DNA from: Armatimonadota bacterium
GTDB taxonomy: Bacteria; Armatimonadota; Armatimonadia; Armatimonadales; Armatimonadaceae
Length of the DNA stretch: 45,805 nt
Reading direction: 5' to 3'
Assembly (NCBI GenBank): GCA_026392155.1
Contig: JAPLCP010000071.1
Span: forward strand, 1-45,805
The position numbers and the translations under genes were made by a program. Positions 3,296 to 30,632 of the stretch are shown here, in pieces (the stretch's first letter is position 1; each line of letters opens with the position of its first letter). The notes under the pieces were generated by a model. It worked only from the letters and a program-made list of their open reading frames with translations. It was not told the origin of the DNA and made no database searches.

Positions 3296-3450
3296 GAACC
3301 CATCCCCCCGGCCCCCTTCCCGCTACGAAGGAAAGGGGAGAGGAAAAGGGGGAGCACCGAGAGGGTTTTCTCCCCTCCCTGCCCTGAGGGAGGGTGGCGT
3401 AGCGAGGAACGAGCGAAGCCGGGTGGGTTCGAGCCGGGTGGGTTTGGAAC
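3296..3450. repeat. C-rich/G-rich palindromic intergenic repeat
   Basis: This sequence separates the two permease genes. It starts GAACCCATCCCCCCGG, continues with a C-rich arm, and pairs with GAAGGAAAGGGG. A second inverted repeat is CCCTCCCT/AGGGAGGG near 3395-3415. The tail carries the direct repeat GCCGGGTGGGTT twice. The first half closely matches, in reverse orientation, the sequence at 16617-16680 inside a coding region; looser relatives are at 30758-30826 and 35101-35207. Confidence 0.7.
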
Positions 3451-3463
3451 GGGTGAATTTACA

Positions 3464-4774
3464 ATGAACGCATTTATTTGGCTTCTCGCGATTATCGCGA
3501 TCATCACCGCGCTGATCTACGGCGTCAGTGTGATTGTTGCAGCGGTACGGGTTCGTAATCTGGCGGCAGCGACGGTCACGGCGGCAGTGCTGGCGGGAAT
3601 GCTCGCCCTCACGCTCTTGGTGCGCTTTGCCCCAGTGAGCCTTGCTCTAGGTATCGTCGTGGCACTGGGGAGTGCGCGCTGGCTTCGGGCACTGACGCGC
3701 AATGCCTCCCATGCCAGTGAGATCACGCGGCTCTCAGCGACGCATCTAGCGCTTTTAGTGGGCTCGTTTATGTTCATGGTGCCCTTTGCATGGCTCCTCT
3801 CGACCTCCCTCAAGGCCGATGACGAGCAGGCGGTCTTTCCTCCCGTCTGGATTCCCACGCAGCACCGGACTACCGACCTCCTCAAGATGAAAGATGGCAA
3901 GCCTGCCCGGCTCTCACAAGCAACGGCAGGCGACTATGCCGGAATGCTCGTTGCTGAGATTGAGGAGCTGCCCGATGGCAAGATCCTGGTCAAGCCCATG
4001 ATCAACGAGAACGCGGTCCAAGGCATGGCCCCTCCCAGGCCCATGATGCGCAGCGAGCTCACGAAGCTTCGCCATGTCGCCCCAAAGTGGGATAACTACT
4101 CCGAGGCGCTGGCGTATCTGCCGCCGGACACGCACTACGGCCTGACGTTTTTAGGCAACACGCTCTTTCTGACGCTCATGAGCGTGCTCGGAACGCTGCT
4201 GGCCTCCTCGATGGTCGCCTACTCGTTTGCGCGGCTCTCCTGGCCAGGCCGAAATCTGCTCTTTGGGATCTTGCTCGCCACGATGATGGTGCCGGGTGCC
4301 GTGACCCTCATGCCGCAGTTCTTGATCTTCCGGAGCCTCGGCTGGATCGACACGCTCAAGCCACTCTGGGTACCCGCATTCTTTGGGTCAGCGTTTAATA
4401 TCTTCATGCTGCGCCAGTTCTTTCTCAGCATCCCCGGCGAGCTGGAAGACGCGGCAAAGATAGACGGCTGCGGCCCGTTTGGGGTCTACTGGCGCGTGAT
4501 GCTGCCGCAAGTAAAGCCCGCGCTGGCGGCGATTGCGATCATGGCCGTGATGGGCGCGTGGAACAACTTCCAGGGACCGCTGATCTATCTCAGCTCCTCG
4601 GAGCACATGCCACTTGCCTACGGGCTCCAGCTCTACCAGCAGCAACACGGCGGCGAGCCTGGCCTGCTCATGGCCGCCTCGACCATGGTCGTGATGCCGA
4701 TCATCCTTCTCTTCTTCTTCACTCAGCGCTACTTTATCGAAGGCGTCAGCCTCACAGGACTCGGGGGACGTTAA
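3464..4774 (+). CDS. MalG-type sugar ABC transporter permease
   Basis: This 436-residue protein is the second permease of the transporter that starts at 868. The EAA loop is clear (ELEDAAKIDGCGPFGVYWR, in the last third) and six core membrane segments can be placed. Two features are unusual. The N-terminus has about 95 extra residues with two or three additional membrane segments. A polar insert of about 75-80 residues lies between PPVWIPT and KWDNYSEAL, where related permeases join these motifs almost directly; it should lie outside the membrane after the first core segment. The start ATG follows the palindromic repeat directly, with only a weak GGTGA upstream, so it may be translated from the transcript of the preceding gene. 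Confidence 0.85.
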   Translation: MNAFIWLLAIIAIITALIYGVSVIVAAVRVRNLAAATVTAAVLAGMLALTLLVRFAPVSLALGIVVALGSARWLRALTRNASHASEITRLSATHLALLVGSFMFMVPFAWLLSTSLKADDEQAVFPPVWIPTQHRTTDLLKMKDGKPARLSQATAGDYAGMLVAEIEELPDGKILVKPMINENAVQGMAPPRPMMRSELTKLRHVAPKWDNYSEALAYLPPDTHYGLTFLGNTLFLTLMSVLGTLLASSMVAYSFARLSWPGRNLLFGILLATMMVPGAVTLMPQFLIFRSLGWIDTLKPLWVPAFFGSAFNIFMLRQFFLSIPGELEDAAKIDGCGPFGVYWRVMLPQVKPALAAIAIMAVMGAWNNFQGPLIYLSSSEHMPLAYGLQLYQQQHGGEPGLLMAASTMVVMPIILLFFFTQRYFIEGVSLTGLGGR

Positions 4775-10494: not shown

Positions 10495-10908
10495 CTAGAG
10501 AAGCTCCTCGGGCTTGAACCAGAGAGCGATCTCATCGGCAGCGGTCTCGGGGGCATCGGAGCCGTGGATTAAGTTCAGCATCATGTCCGACGTGTAGTCG
10601 CCACGGATCGTGCCCGATGTGGCATTGACGGGCTTGGTAGCGCCGATCATGTTGCGGCAGATCTGAATCGCATCGGAGCCTTCCCAGACCATCGCGACCA
10701 CGGGGCCACTGGTGACAAAGTCTACCAGCTCACCAAAAAAAGGACGCTCGGCATGAACGGCGTAGTGGGCCTCGGCGGTGGCGCGGCTGGGGACGAGCTG
10801 CTTGAGCCCGACAAGCTTCAGTCCACGGTTCTCAAAGCGGCCAATGATCTCTCCCACCAGACGGCGCTGGACACCGTCGGGCTTGACCATGATGTAGGTT
10901 CGTTCCAT
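10495..10908 (-). CDS. ndk: Nucleoside diphosphate kinase
   Basis: Ndk moves the terminal phosphate between nucleoside triphosphates and diphosphates through a phospho-histidine. The 137-residue length is typical. Signatures are MVKPDGVQR at the N-terminus and [10 protein letters not shown], which contains the catalytic His115. The gene heads an apparent two-gene unit with queA. The upstream minus-strand sequence GGATATAGATAAATACG before the ATG is A/T-rich and probably holds the -10 element. Confidence 0.96.
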
Positions 10909-11001
10909 CGTATTTATCTATATCCTGACACAGAGTTAGGGCGCACTGCACGCAGTGCGCCCACCAAGGAGCTATTCTACCATCTTCCACTCCGATTGGA
11001 A

Positions 11002-11139
11002 GTCCCCTCGATCAGAACGAGGGGACTAAAGAGCTAAAGCTACGAAGGCCGTTCCGGCCATACAGAATATTTGGGTTTATGGGCGGCACGCCCTTTGTAG
11101 CCGTAGGCTCTCTAGTCCCGCCGCTCTAACCGGCGGGAC
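11002..11139. repeat. Three-part palindromic element, copy A
   Basis: The first stem is GTCCCCTCG (11002-11010) with CGAGGGGAC (11018-11026). The second is a 23-bp inverted pair (11040-11062 and 11078-11100) beginning CTACGAAGG and ending CCTTTGTAG, and each arm can also fold alone (GGCCG-TTC-CGGCC and GGGCG-GCA-CGCCC). The third is GTCCCGCCG (11115-11123) with CGGCGGGAC (11131-11139). The element lies directly after the stop of the caspase-like gene. Copy B is at 13588-13738. Confidence 0.8.
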
Positions 11140-11140
11140 G

Positions 11141-12610
11141 TTACCGCAACGGGTTCTGAGATTCCAGCTTGCGGAGCGCCTCTAGCTGCTTGAGGCGCGC
11201 TTTATCGCCGGACTTGCGCAGGCGCTGCTCCAGAACCACGGACTTGGCGATTCGTATAAACCGAAACCAGCGGGCATCTTCGATGTCTTTGGCATAGCTG
11301 CTCTTGCTGGCTCCCTCGATCTGCTGGCGGACTTGGGCAAGCTCCGCAAGCTGGGTGGGACGCTCTTCGAGATAGGCCATTGCCTGCACCACGGCCTCTT
11401 TCCACTCATCGGTGGTGGCGCGGCGGTTTCCGAGTGCAGGGAAGCGCTGGTTGAGGTCTTGCCGGGCCGTATTATAGCTCTTCTGGGCCTCAGGCGTGAG
11501 CCGAATTCCGGTAGAGCTACTGGGGCGCAGGTCCCGTGCCACGAGCTTGCGGAACTGGTCGTAGGCGACTTTGACCCGATCCTCGCCCTGCGCGGTTGTG
11601 CCAAGTTTTTCACTCAGCCCTTCGAGCGCGGCCCGCTGCGACGGTGACGCGGCGTTTTTCAGGTCGTTCCAGGACGTTCCCGTAATCTCTTCATCGCTCT
11701 CAATCGGCACAAAGCGGCGCAGAAAGACATCGCTGGTGGCCACGGGGACATCAATAGACTCCTCGTTGATCTGGGTCCAGGCGAAGGCTTCGTCCATGCC
11801 CACTTTGCCGTCTTTGTTGTAGTCCGGCTGGACGGACTTACGGCCCAGGCGGTCTTTTCCCGTGAGCGCGGCAAAGAAGTAGCTGGTGAAGTCATGGTAC
11901 TCTTCCTCCTCGACCTCTGGGGTGCAGCCCGCCGCCTCACGCTCTTTGACGGTGGCGAAGAAGCCGCAAAAGGGCCGATCTACCAGCTCACCGTCGGGCT
12001 GGCCACCGGTAAAGAGCAGGTTCCCAAAGGCTCCCGAGAAGCACTGCACCATCACGACGGTCACGGGGCGCTTCTTGGGAAGCTTGGTGAGATGCTCAGA
12101 GAGGGCGGTTGTCGTCAGAGCCCCATTGCCCCAGAGATCGTAGCGGTTGTTGTCGTAGGGGTTCTTGCCCTGCGCCGCCTGCCGCCCCGGTGAGCCATGA
12201 CCGGTGAAGTAGAGCAAGAGCGGGGTCTTGTCGCCTTCGGTGGCAAGCTTGTCAAAGACTCCAGTGATCGTGTCCGCGTTGGTGGAGCCATCGCGACGGG
12301 GCACATCGCTGGTTCGGTACTGTAAAAACGGTGCGCCTTTCGCGGGACGCGGCCCATCGCCAAACAACGTCCGGATGCCTTTCTGCGCCTCGGTCTTGGT
12401 CGCAAGAAACTGCACGGTCGGGGTATCGGTCAGGCCATCGGCGAAGAGTACCGTGGAGCTGACCTGAATGGGAAGTAGCCCATAGACATAGCGCACATTG
12501 CTCTCAATGGCGACCTGGTTGTACTCCGGCGACGGCCCACCACCAAAGATCACACAGCGTAGCGGTGCGGGGGCGAGCAGAAGAGGGGCGAGGAAGATCG
12601 GTGCAATCAT
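11141..12610 (-). CDS. Caspase-like (clan CD) peptidase with EF-hand motif
   Basis: This 489-residue protein starts with a hydrophobic leader (IAPIFLAPLLLAPAP) that suggests export. A His-Cys dyad of the caspase/legumain fold is visible: LLLYFTGHGSPG with His138 and VTVVMVQCFSGA with Cys190, each after a hydrophobic strand. A calcium-binding EF-hand loop follows at 263-274 (DYNKDGKVGMDE). The C-terminal 150 residues are charged and helical, perhaps a coiled coil. Cleavage of a secreted or surface substrate, possibly calcium-controlled, is inferred. The closest named group could be C13/C14-type bacterial peptidases; the exact family is uncertain. A TAAAAT box five bases before the ATG suggests a leaderless mRNA. 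Confidence 0.75.
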   Translation of the reverse strand: MIAPIFLAPLLLAPAPLRCVIFGGGPSPEYNQVAIESNVRYVYGLLPIQVSSTVLFADGLTDTPTVQFLATKTEAQKGIRTLFGDGPRPAKGAPFLQYRTSDVPRRDGSTNADTITGVFDKLATEGDKTPLLLYFTGHGSPGRQAAQGKNPYDNNRYDLWGNGALTTTALSEHLTKLPKKRPVTVVMVQCFSGAFGNLLFTGGQPDGELVDRPFCGFFATVKEREAAGCTPEVEEEEYHDFTSYFFAALTGKDRLGRKSVQPDYNKDGKVGMDEAFAWTQINEESIDVPVATSDVFLRRFVPIESDEEITGTSWNDLKNAASPSQRAALEGLSEKLGTTAQGEDRVKVAYDQFRKLVARDLRPSSSTGIRLTPEAQKSYNTARQDLNQRFPALGNRRATTDEWKEAVVQAMAYLEERPTQLAELAQVRQQIEGASKSSYAKDIEDARWFRFIRIAKSVVLEQRLRKSGDKARLKQLEALRKLESQNPLR

Positions 12611-12621
12611 TGCCTATTTTA
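12608..12621 (-). promoter_or_regulatory. Leaderless-type promoter of the caspase-like gene
   Basis: On the minus strand, TAAAAT (12621-12616), preceded by GG, is followed by five bases and the ATG at 12610. Confidence 0.55.
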
Positions 12622-12628
12622 CCGCGTT

Positions 12629-13564
12629 TTAGAGAGACGGTATCCGCCCACCGGGCAGTACAAATTTAATGCCTAGCGTTCGTAGATACGTTTGCAACCC
12701 CGCGTCCTGCATGGGAAGAAGATGCGCCTCGCGGCCCGACTCGTTGAAGTGAGCGTGCCAGTAGCCGGGCGGGGTGATAAACGAGGCGAACGGCTTCCAG
12801 TCCACGCGTACGGGGTCGAGGATCTCACCTTTCTCGTTGATCTTGGTGCCGACTAGGGTGTAGCAGCCAGGGTCGCAGTCCAAGATCAGGTCCAGCGCGA
12901 TCGACTCGTGGCGGTGCGGGAGCTGGATGGCATTGACGGGAAGCACGCCCAGCATCGCCCAGAGGGTGTGGGTAATGGTGAGGGTCTGATCCATGGCTTT
13001 ATTGGCGAGCAAGACACTGATGCGGCTTCTATTGATCGCATCCCCCTCGCTCTTGGCCTGCGCCAGCGCGGCGAGCGAGTCCTCGGCGGTGAAGAGAGTC
13101 GGGGCAAAGCGCGGGGTGTCGGCGGTCGCGCCCAGATAGCGCAGCAGGGGCTCGTCGTGGACAAGATAGAGCGCGGCGTCTTGCTCGGCGCTGTGGTGGG
13201 TCTCTTTGCCTGTCGGTAGCACCACAAAGTCGCCGGTCTTCCAGGGGATTTCCAGGCCGTCAAAGCGCGTACTGCCCTTGCCGCGCATGACGTAGTAGAG
13301 CTGGGAGGTCGCGTTGAAGCGGAGCGTAAGGCTCTCGCCGGGCAGGATATGCACAAAGTTAGCACACAGCGCCGGGCTGGTCGCGGGGCCGTCGCACCGC
13401 AGCGCCGCGCTCACATCGAGGGGAATGAGCTGTGTCGGGCCGCTCTCGTGGAGGCTACTGGGAAAGTCGGCGTAGGGAATCTGGGAGATCGTCCCCGACC
13501 CAATCGGATCGGCGGCCTTGGTGTACTCGAAGTAGAGACCGTTCTCGGTCAGGCAGGTTGGCAT
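12629..13564 (-). CDS. Bicupin protein, gentisate dioxygenase-like
   Basis: Two cupin folds are visible in 311 residues. The first has QLYYVMRGKGSTRFDG and WKTGDFVVLP, with HH near the metal site. The second has QLPHRHESIALDLIL, and later ITPPGYWHAHFNESG, which supplies further His ligands. Two-domain cupins of this length include gentisate 1,2-dioxygenase and related ring-cleaving enzymes, but the substrate cannot be read from sequence. The gene ends 18 bases upstream of the caspase-like gene and has its own promoter box. Palindromic element B begins 24 bases upstream of its start. Confidence 0.75.
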   Translation of the reverse strand: MPTCLTENGLYFEYTKAADPIGSGTISQIPYADFPSSLHESGPTQLIPLDVSAALRCDGPATSPALCANFVHILPGESLTLRFNATSQLYYVMRGKGSTRFDGLEIPWKTGDFVVLPTGKETHHSAEQDAALYLVHDEPLLRYLGATADTPRFAPTLFTAEDSLAALAQAKSEGDAINRSRISVLLANKAMDQTLTITHTLWAMLGVLPVNAIQLPHRHESIALDLILDCDPGCYTLVGTKINEKGEILDPVRVDWKPFASFITPPGYWHAHFNESGREAHLLPMQDAGLQTYLRTLGIKFVLPGGRIPSL

Positions 13565-13579
13565 GGTAGGGCTATTTTA
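13562..13579 (-). promoter_or_regulatory. Promoter of the bicupin gene
   Basis: On the minus strand, TAAAAT (13579-13574), preceded by GG, lies nine bases before the ATG at 13564, giving a leader of about two bases. Confidence 0.55.
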
Positions 13580-13587
13580 CCTGTTGC

Positions 13588-13738
13588 GTCCCCCCGGTTG
13601 GAGCGGGGGGACTGGAGAGCGCCGCGCTACGAAGGACGTGCCGTCCATAAAATTCCGAGTTCGGTATGGCCGGAACGGCCTTTGTAGCCGAAGGCTCGTT
13701 AGTACCGCCCCTCTAACGGGCGGTAGCTCCAGTCCCCC
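13588..13738. repeat. Three-part palindromic element, copy B
   Basis: The first stem is GTCCCCCCG (13588-13596) with CGGGGGGAC (13604-13612). The 23-bp inverted pair is 13627-13649 and 13665-13687, again CTACGAAGG to CCTTTGTAG, with arms that fold alone (GGACG-TGC-CGTCC and GGCCG-GAA-CGGCC). The third stem is ACCGCCC (13704-13710) with GGGCGGT (13718-13724). An outer stem, GGGGGACTGGAG near 13606 with CTCCAGTCCCCC (13727-13738), encloses the inner parts. The right end runs into the coding region that stops at 13699. Confidence 0.8.
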
Positions 13739-13971
13739 ACTGCACCTTCCAGCCAGCCTCGACGAAAAACTGTTGAAGCGCCTAACGACTCTACCCAAGC
13801 ATCGAATGCATGATGCTCATTGGGGCCGTTCGACCCCTCCCACCACTGAAAAATGTAGTAGCCACCCGTTTCATCGGGGTCGTCATGAACCAGAATCGTC
13901 ATCTCAGGGATGCCCTCAACCTCAAGTGAATTGAGAACAATACCCTCGACCTCAAAAGGAATGTCAATCAT
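13699..13971 (-). CDS. Small acidic protein of unknown function
   Basis: The frame encodes 90 residues, rich in Asp, Glu and Trp (YYIFQWWEGSNGP in the middle), with no signal peptide or membrane segment. A strong ribosome site (GGAGG about nine bases before the ATG) supports real translation. It follows the DUF512-type gene by 26 bases on the same strand. The last 13 codons and the stop come from palindromic element B, so the original C-terminus may have been replaced. I do not recognise a family; small acidic proteins of this kind include immunity proteins, but nothing else here supports that. Confidence 0.65.
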   Translation of the reverse strand: MIDIPFEVEGIVLNSLEVEGIPEMTILVHDDPDETGGYYIFQWWEGSNGPNEHHAFDAWVESLGASTVFRRGWLEGAVGDWSYRPLEGRY

Positions 13972-13997
13972 CGAGATTCAACCTCCTGCAAAACGGG

Positions 13998-15389
13998 CTA
14001 CCGATCTAGCAGAAACGCCGCCGCGGCGGCGGGGGTGCGGTCTATGGCGACCACGGGGCGTCCGAGTTCTTCGTTCACTTGGGTCAGGGTCATCTCGTCC
14101 AAAAAGACCTCGGTGCCGTCGCGGAGCATGACATTGGGGATGAGGATTTCGTCGCCCAAATCGGGGAAGGCTTTGAGCGCATCTACTAAGTCCCGCCCGA
14201 CAATCAGGCCGGCAATATTGATATTTCCCTCGAAAAATTTATTGTGGATCGCGCAGACATTGATCTCTAGGCCCTCGACTTTATTGAAGATCTCGGCGAG
14301 CTGCGTTAAAAGCGGCCCGGCGATCTCGCCGGTGGCGAATGTCACTTTGCGCGGGCGTGGGGCGCGCTTGGGCAGATCGCGCTTGAGTTTTTCACATTCG
14401 TCTAAAAAGAGGCGCACGAGGCCGATACCGTCTTCGAGCTGCGGGAAGCCCTCGTACTGGGAGCGCGATGGAATCGGGAGGCCGCCGCCGAGATAAAACT
14501 CGTCGGAGAGGTAGACAAAGCGCGTGCCCAGCTCTTTAAAGTACCAGGTGCGGAGCGGCTCCAGCTCGTGCACCCACCAGGCTTTCTGCTCGCCGTTCCA
14601 GGTCTCAACCGGCGCGAGGCGCTCTCGAAACTGCGTGATGCCAATTGGGACAACCGCCACAGAGATAATCCCACCGAACGCGCCGCGCTTCTTCGGGTGG
14701 AGATTGGCGAGATCGGTGATCGTCTGGAAGAACACGTCGCCGTCGTTGTAGTGCGGCACCAGCACCACTTGCGCGTGGATCTGAATCCGGGCCTCGACCA
14801 GCCGCTCCAAGATCGGCAGGATCGGCTCGGGGCCACGGCGACCCAGAATCTTACCACGCGCCTCCGGGTCGGTGGCGTGAACCGAGACATAGAGCGGCGA
14901 GAGGCGCTGCTCACAGATGCGGTCTAGCTCGCCGGGCTTGAGGTTGGTCAGCGTGACGTAGTTGCTGTGCAGAAACGAGAGCCGGAAGTCGTCGTCTTTC
15001 ACGTAGAGGCTGGGGCGCAGGCCCTTGGGCTGCTGGTAGAGAAAGCAAAAGACGCACTTGTTCTTGCAGATGTGCATCCGGTCGAAAAGATCCTCGGAGA
15101 ACGTGATTCCGAGAGGCTGGTCGAAGCCTTTCTCGATGAAAACATTCAGCAGGTCGTCGCCGCGCTTGATCGCCAGAGTCACTTCCTCAGCAGCGGAGTA
15201 GAAGCGCCAGTCCACGACATCGGTGAGTGGGTGGCCATTGACCGAGAGCACCACATCCCCGACTTGCAGCCCTGCCTCTTCGGCGATACTGCCCGCATCA
15301 AGCGCCTCGATTGCATTGCGAGGCAGTGGCGAGCGGCGCTCAAGATGCTCAAGACGCTCATGGGTCGCGACGGGAAGGGTTAGGGCCAT
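13998..15389 (-). CDS. DUF512/PDZ iron-sulfur protein, radical-SAM-like
   Basis: The 463-residue protein opens with a PDZ-like domain (about 25-85: SIAEEAGLQVGDVVLSVNGH), followed by a cysteine cluster CKNKCVFCF (CX3CX2C) that in this family ligates a 4Fe-4S cluster. The C-terminal half is the DUF512 domain, with motifs such as VPIGITQFRERL, FATGEIAGPLL and GLIVGRDL. Members are widespread in anaerobic and deep-branching bacteria and their substrate is unknown. The length matches the family. The start is eight bases after a TACAAT box. The gene is divergent from the R3H ATPase gene at 15452. Confidence 0.88.
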   Translation of the reverse strand: MALTLPVATHERLEHLERRSPLPRNAIEALDAGSIAEEAGLQVGDVVLSVNGHPLTDVVDWRFYSAAEEVTLAIKRGDDLLNVFIEKGFDQPLGITFSEDLFDRMHICKNKCVFCFLYQQPKGLRPSLYVKDDDFRLSFLHSNYVTLTNLKPGELDRICEQRLSPLYVSVHATDPEARGKILGRRGPEPILPILERLVEARIQIHAQVVLVPHYNDGDVFFQTITDLANLHPKKRGAFGGIISVAVVPIGITQFRERLAPVETWNGEQKAWWVHELEPLRTWYFKELGTRFVYLSDEFYLGGGLPIPSRSQYEGFPQLEDGIGLVRLFLDECEKLKRDLPKRAPRPRKVTFATGEIAGPLLTQLAEIFNKVEGLEINVCAIHNKFFEGNINIAGLIVGRDLVDALKAFPDLGDEILIPNVMLRDGTEVFLDEMTLTQVNEELGRPVVAIDRTPAAAAAFLLDR

Positions 15390-28599: not shown

Positions 28600-28624
28600 T
28601 AACGATATAGTCGTCAGTCCCACA

Positions 28625-28670
28625 GGGCTTAGTTTCCTGTTGCCTCTCCGTAGTTGCTAAGGAGAAGCCC
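28625..28670 (-). other. Possible structured leader of the Rieske/ATPase operon
   Basis: Read on the minus strand, GGGCTT (28670-28665) pairs with AAGCCC (28630-28625). CTCC (28664-28661) pairs with GGAG (28649-28646) directly above it, leaving an 11-base loop and a one-sided 15-base bulge. I do not recognise a riboswitch class. Confidence 0.35.
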
Positions 28671-28677
28671 GGCTGCA

Positions 28678-28698
28678 CTTGCGGGAGCTACCCGCAAG
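28678..28698 (-). terminator. Hairpin downstream of dxs
   Basis: CTTGCGGG (28678-28685) and CCCGCAAG (28691-28698) form a perfect eight-base stem with a five-base loop, 20 bases after the dxs stop. No clear T run follows. Confidence 0.55.
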
Positions 28699-28718
28699 CC
28701 GCCTGATCTGTCAAGATT

Positions 28719-30632
28719 TTATCCGAGCACTCGCTCCGTTGCCATCCCCCGAACGGCAGAGTTTGCCAGGAGCGCCTCAGCGGCTTTGACAATCGCGGCG
28801 GCGTCCATTCCGACGAGCTCGCGGAGCTTGGGGATGGGGCCGTGCTCGACGAAGTGATCTGGGAGGCCGATTCGGGTGACTTGCACGTCGGTGAGGCCAC
28901 GGTCGGTGAGGAGCTCGACAATCGCGCTGCCAAAGCCTCCGGCGAGAATGCCGTCCTCTACCGTGATGATTCGCTTCGTGCGGCGGGCGAGCGCAAGAAT
29001 CGCCACTTCATCGAGCGGCTTGACCCAGCGGGCATTGAGCACTTCGACCGTGTGGCCTTGGGTCTCCAGTGTATTGGCCGCGATGAGCGCCTCGCTCACA
29101 ATCGGGCCAAGGGTGATAATGCCGATATCGTCCCCGCGCCGCAGGGTCTCAGACTGCCCGAGCTGGATCGGGGCGCACGTATCCGTGAGGTTCTCGCTGC
29201 CGCCGCGTGGGTAGCGCAGGGCGATGGGGCCTTTGCGATAGGCGAGGGCGAACTTGGTCATCTCGCGCAGCTCCTGCGGGTCTTTGGGCGAGAGCATCAC
29301 CAAGTTCGGAATCGAGCGCAGGTAGGCGATATCCATGGTTCCGTGGTGCGTCGCGCCGTCATCCCCGACAAGCCCCGCACGGTCAATCGCAAAGACCACG
29401 GGCAGGTTCTGGATACAGACATCGTGGACAATCTGGTCGTAGGCGCGCTGCAAGAACGTCGAGTAGATCGCGCAGACGGGCGTGAAGCCCTCTGCGGCAA
29501 GCCCTGCGGCAAAAGTGACCGCGTGCTGCTCCGCGATCCCGACATCGAAGAAGCGCTTGGGGAACTTGTCGGCGAACTTGGCCAGGCCCGTGCCATCGGG
29601 CATGGCGGCGGTGATGGCGACCACTTTGTCATTGTTGACGGCGACTTCATTCAGGCTCTCGACAAAGGCCTGGGTGTAGGTGACGCCACTGGACTTCTTC
29701 TCCATCTTGCCGTCTTCGATCGAGAAGCCCGTGGTCGCGTGCCAGGTGCGCTGGTCTTTCTCGGCGGGCTCGTAGCCCTTGCCCTTGGTGGTCAGGACAT
29801 GGAGCAGAACGGGGCCATCGAGGTGCTTGGCATGCTCGAACACCTGAACCAGAAAGTCTGTGTCGTGACCGTCAATGGGGCCAATGTACTGAAAGCCTAG
29901 CTCCTCGAAGAACAGGCCGGTGTTGGCAGGCGACGTAAAGTGGGTCGCGGCATGCTTGGCACCTGCGGCGGTGCGGTAGAGAAGGCCGTCTTTGTTGAGC
30001 GATTTCTTGACCGTGCTCTCCACTTTCTGGTAGGTGGGCATCAGCCGCAGCTTCGCCAGATAGGTCGCCAGCGCCCCGACATTCTCGGCGATACTCATCT
30101 CGTTGTCGTTGAGAACCACCAGCATCTTGGTCTTCTGGTCGCCTATATTGAGCAGGGCCTCCAGCGCCATCCCGCCCGTGAGCGAGCCATCGCCGATAAT
30201 GCCGATCACGCTCTCTTTCGAGCCACGCAGGTCGCGCGCCTTGGCAAACCCCAGTGCGGCGGAGAGAGACGTGCTGGCGTGGCCTGCGCCGAATAAGTCG
30301 TACTCGCTCTCGTCGCGGCGCAGAAACCCCGAGATTCCCTGGTACTGCTTGATCGTGTGGAGCTGCTTCCAGCGCCCGGTGAGCATCTTGTGTGGGTAGC
30401 ACTGGTGCCCCACGTCCCAGATGACTTTGTCCTTGGGCAGCTCAAAGACTTTATAGAGCGCCACGGTCAGCTCGACCACGCCCAGATTCGGTGCAAAGTG
30501 CCCTCCGACGCGCGAGATGGTCTGGATGAGCCCCTGGCGCACCTCGTTGCAGAGCGCTTTTAACTGGGCGGAGTCCATGCTCTTAAGGTCGGCGGGGCCG
30601 GTGAGCTGATCGAGAATCGGAAATGAGTCCAT
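28719..30632 (-). CDS. dxs: 1-deoxy-D-xylulose-5-phosphate synthase
   Basis: Dxs condenses pyruvate with glyceraldehyde 3-phosphate, the first step of the MEP isoprenoid pathway, using thiamine diphosphate. Diagnostic parts are DVGHQCYPHKMLTGR, the cofactor motif GDGSLTGGMALEALLN ending in LNDNEMSI, DVGIAEQHAVTFAAGLA and DRAGLVGDDGATHHG. The ATG at 30632 gives 637 residues; a GTG three codons upstream is an alternative. It has its own strong promoter at 30675-30703 and a hairpin after the stop, so it is probably a single-gene unit. Confidence 0.97.
   Translation of the reverse strand: MDSFPILDQLTGPADLKSMDSAQLKALCNEVRQGLIQTISRVGGHFAPNLGVVELTVALYKVFELPKDKVIWDVGHQCYPHKMLTGRWKQLHTIKQYQGISGFLRRDESEYDLFGAGHASTSLSAALGFAKARDLRGSKESVIGIIGDGSLTGGMALEALLNIGDQKTKMLVVLNDNEMSIAENVGALATYLAKLRLMPTYQKVESTVKKSLNKDGLLYRTAAGAKHAATHFTSPANTGLFFEELGFQYIGPIDGHDTDFLVQVFEHAKHLDGPVLLHVLTTKGKGYEPAEKDQRTWHATTGFSIEDGKMEKKSSGVTYTQAFVESLNEVAVNNDKVVAITAAMPDGTGLAKFADKFPKRFFDVGIAEQHAVTFAAGLAAEGFTPVCAIYSTFLQRAYDQIVHDVCIQNLPVVFAIDRAGLVGDDGATHHGTMDIAYLRSIPNLVMLSPKDPQELREMTKFALAYRKGPIALRYPRGGSENLTDTCAPIQLGQSETLRRGDDIGIITLGPIVSEALIAANTLETQGHTVEVLNARWVKPLDEVAILALARRTKRIITVEDGILAGGFGSAIVELLTDRGLTDVQVTRIGLPDHFVEHGPIPKLRELVGMDAAAIVKAAEALLANSAVRGMATERVLG

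Follow-up and report, generated by a model that had tools for sequence, protein, structure and literature searches.

A 45,805-nucleotide stretch of an Armatimonadota bacterium (contig JAPLCP010000071.1 of assembly GCA_026392155.1, positions 1 to 45,805 of the forward strand; hereafter the window) carries two palindromic elements, A and B, whose hairpin stems change in sequence and stay paired, raising the question of what kind of nucleic acid is kept folded in this way and why the two inverted halves of each element are not alike. A first-pass annotation had left the choice among non-autonomous transposable elements, REP-like (repetitive extragenic palindromic) sequences moved by a TnpA, and a repeated RNA. 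We conclude with good confidence that A and B are non-autonomous elements of an IS200/IS605-type Y1 (HUH) transposase whose halves are kept unlike against folding into one long hairpin, and that they are most likely of the REP or terminal inverted repeat (TIR) kind, near the published TIRtrons. The filing of the family is firm, while the mechanism behind the regularity that we describe is our best reading and is not proven.

In each element two half-units, about 61 bases long and 17 bases apart, face each other in inverted orientation. From the outside inwards, a half-unit consists of hairpin A (hpA), a linker, hairpin B (hpB), ACRAA, hairpin C (hpC) and AT, where hpA has a 9-bp stem and a 7-base loop that is mostly RTYRGAR, the linker after it is usually TGGAG, hpB has AGC...GCT enclosing a variable core, and the commonest forms of hpC are GGNCG-TNC-CGNCC. 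Element A was correctly placed at 11002-11139 by the first-pass annotation: its left half, on the + strand, contains hpA at 11002-11026 (9-bp stem, loop ATCAGAA), hpB at 11032-11041 (AGC-TAAA-GCT, read from the sequence and from the half-unit alignment A1) and hpC at 11047-11059 (GGCCG-TTC-CGGCC, read from the sequence and pair counts), and its right half, on the - strand, has hpC at 11081-11093 (GGGCG-TGC-CGCCC), hpB at 11099-11109 (AGCC-TAC-GGCT) and hpA at 11115-11139 (loop GTTAGAG). Element B starts at 13588, as had been proposed, with a + strand left half of hpA at 13588-13612 (loop GTTGGAG), hpB at 13618-13628 (AGCG-CCG-CGCT) and hpC at 13634-13646 (GGACG-TGC-CGTCC), and a - strand right half of hpC at 13668-13680 (GGCCG-TTC-CGGCC), hpB at 13686-13696 (AGCC-TTC-GGCT) and hpA at 13702-13726 (loop GTTAGAG, outermost pair broken). 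The core of B thus ends at 13726, and the end listed earlier, 13738, takes in bases of a degenerate extra outer-hairpin arm; by eye, positions 13727-13745 (GGGGGACTGGAG on the - strand) are the probable leftover of a second, outer hpA arm, since tandem hpA modules occur in other copies. Such extra modules lie just outside hpA in L123, L125, L137 and others, with a TGGAG-like linker after each, and it is possible that elements grow by addition of outer hairpins. On the + strand the four inner arms of A and B read GGCCG-TTC-CGGCC, GGGCG-GCA-CGCCC, GGACG-TGC-CGTCC and GGCCG-GAA-CGGCC; these are the four hpC hairpins, and their variable pairs are C-G, G-C, A-T and C-G, just as first described. The layout of three stems, on the other hand, was an undercount, as each half has three hairpins and each element six, at times with a small central hairpin in addition (by eye).

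The resemblance of A and B is not due to chance, since the exact pattern TGGAGAGC-N(3-14)-GCTACRAAGG had 41 matches in the window's genome (4.77 Mb, 228 contigs, 96.6% complete) and 0 for a reversed-pattern control. The pattern supplied 60 half-units. Seven of these were set aside, six for a long hpB or hpC and, needlessly, one half of L011, and we included the left half of B although it had escaped the pattern; the resulting 54 half-units (A1) of the window's genome and of a sister genome of the same genus (G001, 20 contigs) were used to build a covariance model, R1. This model matches both halves of A (10999-11061, 78.3 bits; 11079-11142, 84.4 bits) and of B (13585-13648, 77.5 bits; 13666-13729, 73.8 bits). 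Genome searches with R1 scored 150 candidates per genome (150 of 3593 in the window's genome), so that all copy numbers are lower bounds; we found at least 136 half-unit matches in the window's genome and at least 135 in the sister genome, and across 21 genomes there were at least 4 in G014 (a one-contig genome) and at least 1 in G018, both weak, with 0 in the other 17 among the candidates scored. Above 37 bits, the fetched regions of the window's genome hold at least 45 two-half elements and 10 single halves, 5 weak matches (below 31 bits) among the 105 in these regions being left out of the pairing. The two ends of these short elements lie 1-51 bp apart, mostly 8-22, and 9 of 45 elements overlap an open reading frame (ORF) by a crude ORF rule; the family is thus an inverted palindrome doublet, extragenic and multicopy. 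Two contig ends of the window's genome, L113 (C38:12-88) and L114 (C167:5161-5237), bear an identical half-unit, which likely marks an assembly break within one element. A comparison of element A with plasmids and phages gave no match. As to copies outside the genus, a 23-base pattern with few free positions was found in 13 genome contigs from several phyla and in 1 viral contig among 257 Gb, which by our own arithmetic is about as many as chance predicts.

The stems of these copies covary. In the MAFFT alignment of the 54 half-units, 94.9% of the cells were paired as compared with 80.9% after shuffling, and 97 two-sided changes stood against 27.7 in shuffled and 6-19 in slid controls, with only 3 one-sided changes. 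The 104 distinct matches from the window's genome gave 94.7% paired cells versus 79.8% shuffled, and 200 two-sided changes versus 58.0 in shuffled alignments and 8-38 for slid structures, with 10 one-sided changes, all of the G·U type; this larger alignment was fitted to the structure and is therefore biased towards the model, and the 54-row MAFFT alignment agrees with it. The outermost pair of hpA was broken in 47 of the 104 rows. Thus, the compensatory stem changes suspected from four arms are real, and the covariance-model search suggested in the first-pass annotation brought both many further copies and covariation that was upheld in them. RNA helices under selection usually display many G·U steps. 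Their near-absence here favours a structure formed by DNA, since a G·T on one strand is an A·C on the other. The two loop ends of hpA agreed as G·G or A·A in 87 of 88 cases; we do not claim a structural constraint on them, as two linked haplotypes would explain it. We also weighed, and set aside, a resemblance between these loops and the core sites of integron attC.

Having found that pairing within hairpins is kept, we compared the alleles of the two halves of each element with those of re-paired halves, using 43 elements of the window's genome (2 of the 45 could not be parsed, and the ten single halves were not used). The two halves carried the same hpB pair 4 in only 2 of 43 elements, thus differing in 41, where re-pairing would give 14.0, and the same hpC pair 3 in 9, differing in 34, where 21.0 were expected; in both cases 0 of 20,000 shuffles were as low. 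Moreover, base R of ACRAA was the same in 13 of 41 elements (two more lacking A or G at this place), below the expected 20.9 (P 0.012), and the mean half-to-half identity was 0.700, whereas re-paired halves averaged 0.737 (standard deviation 0.008) and 0 of 2000 shuffles reached so low a value. With DNA energy parameters, the best fold was more stable than the most stable purely local one by 9.1 kcal/mol in the 45 real elements, by 14.4 kcal/mol in re-paired ones (standard deviation of means 1.1; 0 of 60 as low) and by 55.8 kcal/mol with one half doubled, which means that random re-pairing would add 5 kcal/mol in favour of one long hairpin; the longest left-right complementary run averaged 10.6 versus 13.0 (P 0.0006). 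As judged from these computed energies, the long fold is weakened in real elements, not abolished, and the data support avoidance of the long palindrome with retention of the local hairpins.

Could this pattern arise without selection on the hairpins? Quasi-palindrome correction is a known mutational process, in which template switching perfects the hairpins of imperfect palindromes; it would change both sides of a stem in a single event, leaving few G·U intermediates, and the discordance of halves might then be left over from the fusion of unrelated half-units. Hybrids between families do exist, such as L188 (G001:C1:399100-400100), in which one half belongs to the window's family and the other to the family of the transposase at locus L046, and in the sister genome many further elements join halves from two families. 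However, if random halves had been fused, the real elements should show the values obtained by re-pairing, and they fall below these; furthermore, correction would extend to the long palindrome and render its two halves alike, contrary to our observations. We therefore regard such an origin as unlikely.

A link to a transposase was found in the sister genome. At its locus L142, two R1 matches (79.4 and 81.9 bits) lie inverted on either side of a 162-amino-acid Y1 ORF, the second overlapping the last bases of the ORF, and L142 is likely the autonomous form of the window's own family. A Pfam Y1 search had matches in 16 of 21 genomes, with four matches at three loci in the window's genome (one locus being split in two). 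More divergent half-units flank the Y1 genes of L147, L144, L046, L047 and L082; an inverted-repeat scan of 36 Y1 loci found repeats in 22, and the order of three hairpins was also seen, by eye, in several families distant in sequence, for example at L084, L080, L066 and L047. At L046:1310-2071 a Y1 gene has a complete short element of its own family on either side. A script found the motif Y---Q--HH in 13 of 36 rows, which are 12 distinct loci (L069 and L143 being one gene), Y---Q in 1 and no motif in 22, in a set of rows that differs from that of the inverted-repeat scan and in which two rows repeat others; all 12 distinct Y---Q--HH loci fall among the 22 with inverted repeats. The L142 protein itself has PDHVH plus Y---Q--HH with one Tyr motif, is 48-51% identical to the proteins of L046 and L047, and matched eight sequences of solved structures, all labelled transposases and including the ISHp608 transposase. 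It reached 69.4 bits with the NCBIfam IS200/IS605 model (the two other proteins tested, 69.2 and 82.3; cut-off 55), while with the NCBIfam model for RAYT (REP-associated tyrosine transposase) the three proteins scored 30.5, 32.3 and 35.1 bits, below the cut-off of 80. The suggestion of REP-like DNA moved by a TnpA thus holds for its mobile, TnpA-linked part, as half-units flank the L142 Y1 gene and occupy many loci, and would be inexact if the TnpA were taken to be a RAYT. The GGGGWSAS motif occurs in only 3 of 90 halves, and the outer foot of hpA, the place where REPs of RAYTs have an unpaired GTAG or GGAG 5' of the palindrome, reads GTAG in 10 of 90 ends and GGAG in 4 of 90, to which stop codons at the border may contribute.

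What is observed here is a repeat family, a transposase gene bracketed by its ends, covarying stems, unlike halves and, as described below, sites that differ between species; from these we propose an explanation whose transposase steps are drawn from IS200/IS605 and REP biology. The autonomous form would be arranged as hpA-hpB-hpC, transposase gene, hpC'-hpB'-hpA', and the short form would be the same with both ends brought to within 1-51 bp. The transposase would recognise single-stranded, folded hairpins through their structure, loops and unpaired bases and would cut beside them, and the element would move as single-stranded DNA at replication forks, without target duplication; that the elements transpose at all is likewise proposed by analogy. 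Stem sequences would be free to change because only pairing matters. The halves would have to differ because two like halves, at so short a distance, would collapse into a single hairpin of about 60 bp, which would outcompete the small hairpins required for recognition and would be a palindrome of the type often deleted in bacteria. Preserving the local pairs while avoiding the long-range ones would lead to halves that covary and yet are mismatched. In its strictest form this becomes an obligate heterodimer rule, in which the active form is a clover of small hairpins, elements with like halves collapse and are lost or immobile, and polymorphism of the stems is thereby kept; we put this forward tentatively, as a rule whose chance of being right is somewhat below even.

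The places that the elements occupy were examined with a simple ORF rule, three elements being without two neighbours. The gap to the 3' end of an adjoining gene had a median of 3 bp (n=47), with 18 of 47 at -1 to +1 bp and 9 of these overlapping the stop codon by one base, and the gap to 5' ends a median of 23 bp (n=37); in element A, 1 bp separates the end of the right-half hpA from the stop codon that closes the - strand ORF at 11141-12610. The flanking genes were in tandem orientation in 21 cases, convergent in 13 and divergent in 8 (n=42). No direct match between left and right flanks exceeded z 2.8 in 45 elements, giving no sign of a target-site duplication. Both A and B are missing beside their orthologous neighbour genes in the sister species (proteins 78% and 96% identical; one flank comparable each), and R1 had only a 10.4-bit match, inside a gene, at the sister's orthologous places. 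One other site has, in the sister, a different palindromic repeat that starts within 3 bases of the same point after TAA, and at another site both species bear elements that differ in make. The check for empty sites in relatives proposed in the first-pass annotation therefore gave differences between sites, and not a clean site with both flanks preserved; the occupied sites are not the same in the two species, and certain sites seem to have been used more than once. Another palindromic repeat, about 85 bp long (CCCCCTAACCCCCGCCCGGCGGGGG...CCCCCGCCGGGCGGGGG), lies between stop and start codons at L124:130-215 and G001:C2:884772-884864, at nearly the same point after TAA as a window-type element in the window's genome, and over 20 other places with it turned up in the sister genome (40 candidates scored). 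Within the window, positions 3321-3480 hold another G+C-rich repeat-like stretch, with GCTACGAAGG and without the hairpins of the element.

We then asked how far the discordance of halves extends beyond the window's genome. The 40 loci fetched from the sister genome yielded 13 elements in which each half scored at least 45 bits; hpC pairs 2 and 3, taken jointly, were alike in 0 of 13, where 4.2 were expected (P 0.005). A second family of the window's genome has 75 matches to its hpC pattern; among the loci fetched from that genome, one element appeared on two contigs and was entered a single time, leaving 10 of 11, and the halves agreed at the first core base of hpB in 0 of 10, where 2.63 were expected (P 0.042). 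In G014, counted by eye in 30 fetched loci of 56 matches and with one half required to show the exact hpC pattern, all 23 elements, which form two sub-families, differ in at least one hairpin, hpB differing in 11 of 11 of one sub-family and in 8 of 12 of the other. In gene-bearing copies, where roughly 450-600 bp separate the two ends, these are identical at 6 of 22 loci (57/57, 59/59 and 79/79 being examples), and the ends are 59/68 alike at L142 and 69/85 at L144. These identical ends fit a cost of like halves that acts only at close range, although the inverted-repeat scan favours like ends, so that the contrast of gene-bearing with short copies is suggestive only. In summary, the regularity is strong in the window's genome and is partly repeated elsewhere, and the generality of the heterodimer rule beyond the window's family is only partly shown.

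Several observations weigh against the explanation by long-hairpin avoidance. In the window's family, hpA positions show little or no discordance (lowest P 0.034), the outermost base of hpA is the same in both halves in 22 of 43 elements, above the expected 15.0, and a left-right complementary run of 16 or more persists in 9 of 45 elements (P 0.08); besides, the copies are related to one another, so that the shuffle values are not strict probabilities. In the sister genome, single positions were not significant, hpB pair 4 and base R each being alike in 3 of 13 elements (P 0.09 and P 0.10), hpC pair 3 in 4 of 13 (expected 6.9, P 0.12) and hpC pair 2 in 7 of 13 (P 0.48). In the second family, the whole hpB core was alike in 0 of 10, where only 0.95 was expected (P 0.34), and hpC is often alike between the halves. 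The cognate transposase gene was found only in the sister genome, the window's genome having three other Y1 loci, and no clean two-sided empty site was present at the sites compared with the sister, two of which were otherwise occupied.

The ends might also be simply different in kind, with a fixed left and a fixed right as in IS200/IS605, and not avoid each other. One G014 sub-family does seem, by eye, to show a constant difference between its two hpC ends. In the window's family, however, no linkage among the hpB, hpC and R alleles was seen inside the halves (p 0.80, 0.18 and 0.23), which argues that there are no two fixed end types, and the identical ends of gene-bearing loci, from a scan that favours like ends, point the same way; we consider fixed ends improbable. 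Still less probable is an artefact in which elements with identical halves break short-read assemblies, so that only unlike-half elements are left to be seen. The fragmentation of the window's genome, a few R1 matches at contig ends (C38, C71, C72 and C167) and the only partly significant replicate in the 20-contig sister genome would fit such a bias, but there the hpC pairs 2-3 were shared between the halves of none of the 13 elements, the by-eye count in the single contig of G014 found unlike hairpins in 23 of 23, and just 2 of the 10 single halves have a contig end within 100 bp.

The repeated-RNA option of the first-pass annotation, in which the elements would be transcribed at gene 3' ends as stabilisers, terminators or regulators, is not upheld either. 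Copies adjoining stop codons at the short gaps given above would often be transcribed, and the base-pair covariation is strong; nevertheless, the preponderance of two-sided changes (200) over one-sided cells of the G·U type (10) speaks for DNA, the same ends bracket a transposase gene, and 8 of 42 copies lie between divergent ORFs. An Rfam scan of the window had no match at gathering score in A or B, and of 4 terminator-like sites in window positions 10800-14000 (shuffles 2.6) 0 were within A or B. Taken together, a functional RNA appears quite unlikely. The sole Rfam match above gathering score in the window is a NiCo riboswitch aptamer at 28613-28720 (- strand), far from the elements. Finally, a miniature inverted-repeat transposable element (MITE) of a cut-and-paste (DDE) transposon with TIRs, which would likewise be short and multicopy with two inverted ends, is highly improbable, no search aimed at DDE transposases having been made, given the lack of a target-site duplication in 45 elements, ends that vary freely with compensation, unlike the binding sites of double-strand DNA transposases, and a Y1 transposase as the gene between such ends.

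Retaining the reading of A and B as non-autonomous Y1 elements with halves kept unlike, we compared them with known systems. They resemble IS200/IS605 in the transposase family assigned by NCBIfam, in ISHp608 being among the matched solved sequences and in the lack of target duplication. The ends of IS200/IS605 are unlike subterminal hairpins, without TIRs, whereas the ends described here are inverted repeats of three hairpins. The TnpA-Y1 enzymes were treated in 2018 in a paper whose first author is said to be Quentin. In that paper, subclass 1.2 has Y---Q--HH and generally lacks typical terminal structures, with low copy numbers, and class 3 genes are flanked by several unusual hairpins with many genomic copies (PMC6006769). 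Our proteins share the signature with subclass 1.2, to which they are likened by signature alone, and the flanking hairpins with many genomic copies with class 3; unlike subclass 1.2, they have three-hairpin ends and many non-autonomous copies.

TIRtrons were described as Y1 genes with TIRs, some of them self-complementary, plus dispersed copies; their transposases, the TIRYTs, were linked to RAYTs, and the motif GGGGWSAS was found in some TIRs, not all (Di Nocera, De Gregorio, Rocco 2013; PMC3733652). As in TIRtrons, we find a Y1 gene within inverted repeats (22 of 36 loci) and repeats that are also dispersed, many as dimers, in moderate numbers; in contrast to them, three hairpins stand in fixed order, GGGGWSAS is rare, the motif is Y---Q--HH and the enzymes are below the RAYT cut-off. 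REPINs are another likeness, described in a 2011 paper reportedly by Bertels and Rainey. That paper reports compensatory changes across the predicted REPIN hairpin, and a supplementary legend gives a long hairpin beside a clover fold, as hypotheses (PMC3116915). The present elements share with the REPINs and bacterial interspersed mosaic elements (BIMEs) of RAYTs the inverted palindrome pairs, the extragenic location, the many copies and the link to Y1, and differ in that the long hairpin, reported to be kept there, is weakened here with the local hairpins kept, and in an enzyme below the RAYT cut-off. As to heterodimers, the Escherichia coli y-z1 and y-z2 BIMEs are inverted palindromes of unlike type (PMC8266576), and REP heterodimers were found to be preferred in most families, with "no obvious explanation" and perhaps through protection from clearance (PMC3733652). 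Our elements likewise consist of two inverted palindromes of different type, for which protection from clearance of a large hairpin has been suggested (PMC3733652); here, by contrast, the rule is tested by re-pairing, is seen at two hairpins with alleles unlinked within a half, and can be compared with gene-bearing copies. For TnpA-REP enzymes, the need for particular loops, mismatches and foot bases was tested, and a stem mismatch seriously cut cleavage for two of them (Corneloup et al. 2021; PMC8266576). We found no literature on Armatimonadetes or Armatimonadota with such repeats, a term search of a REP survey (PMC12306157) had no match, and no earlier statement of a tested heterodimer rule was found in the literature searched, which was chiefly outside subscription journals and mostly without full text; what is new here is the heterodimer rule, as tested against re-pairing.

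Three-hairpin ends and non-autonomous copies are now tied to the Y---Q--HH type of transposase, which had been described as generally without typical ends. If the heterodimer rule is true, it would give a reason for the frequent heterodimers among REP-type dimers, and the diversity of stems within a genome would be upheld by selection against self-complementarity, somewhat like self-incompatibility alleles. REP-type repeats are widespread in bacterial genomes, and on the folded form that their transposases use this family offers a natural experiment, with dozens of copies, alleles unlinked within halves, hairpins that stay paired where long-range pairing is avoided, and gene-bearing copies as a control.

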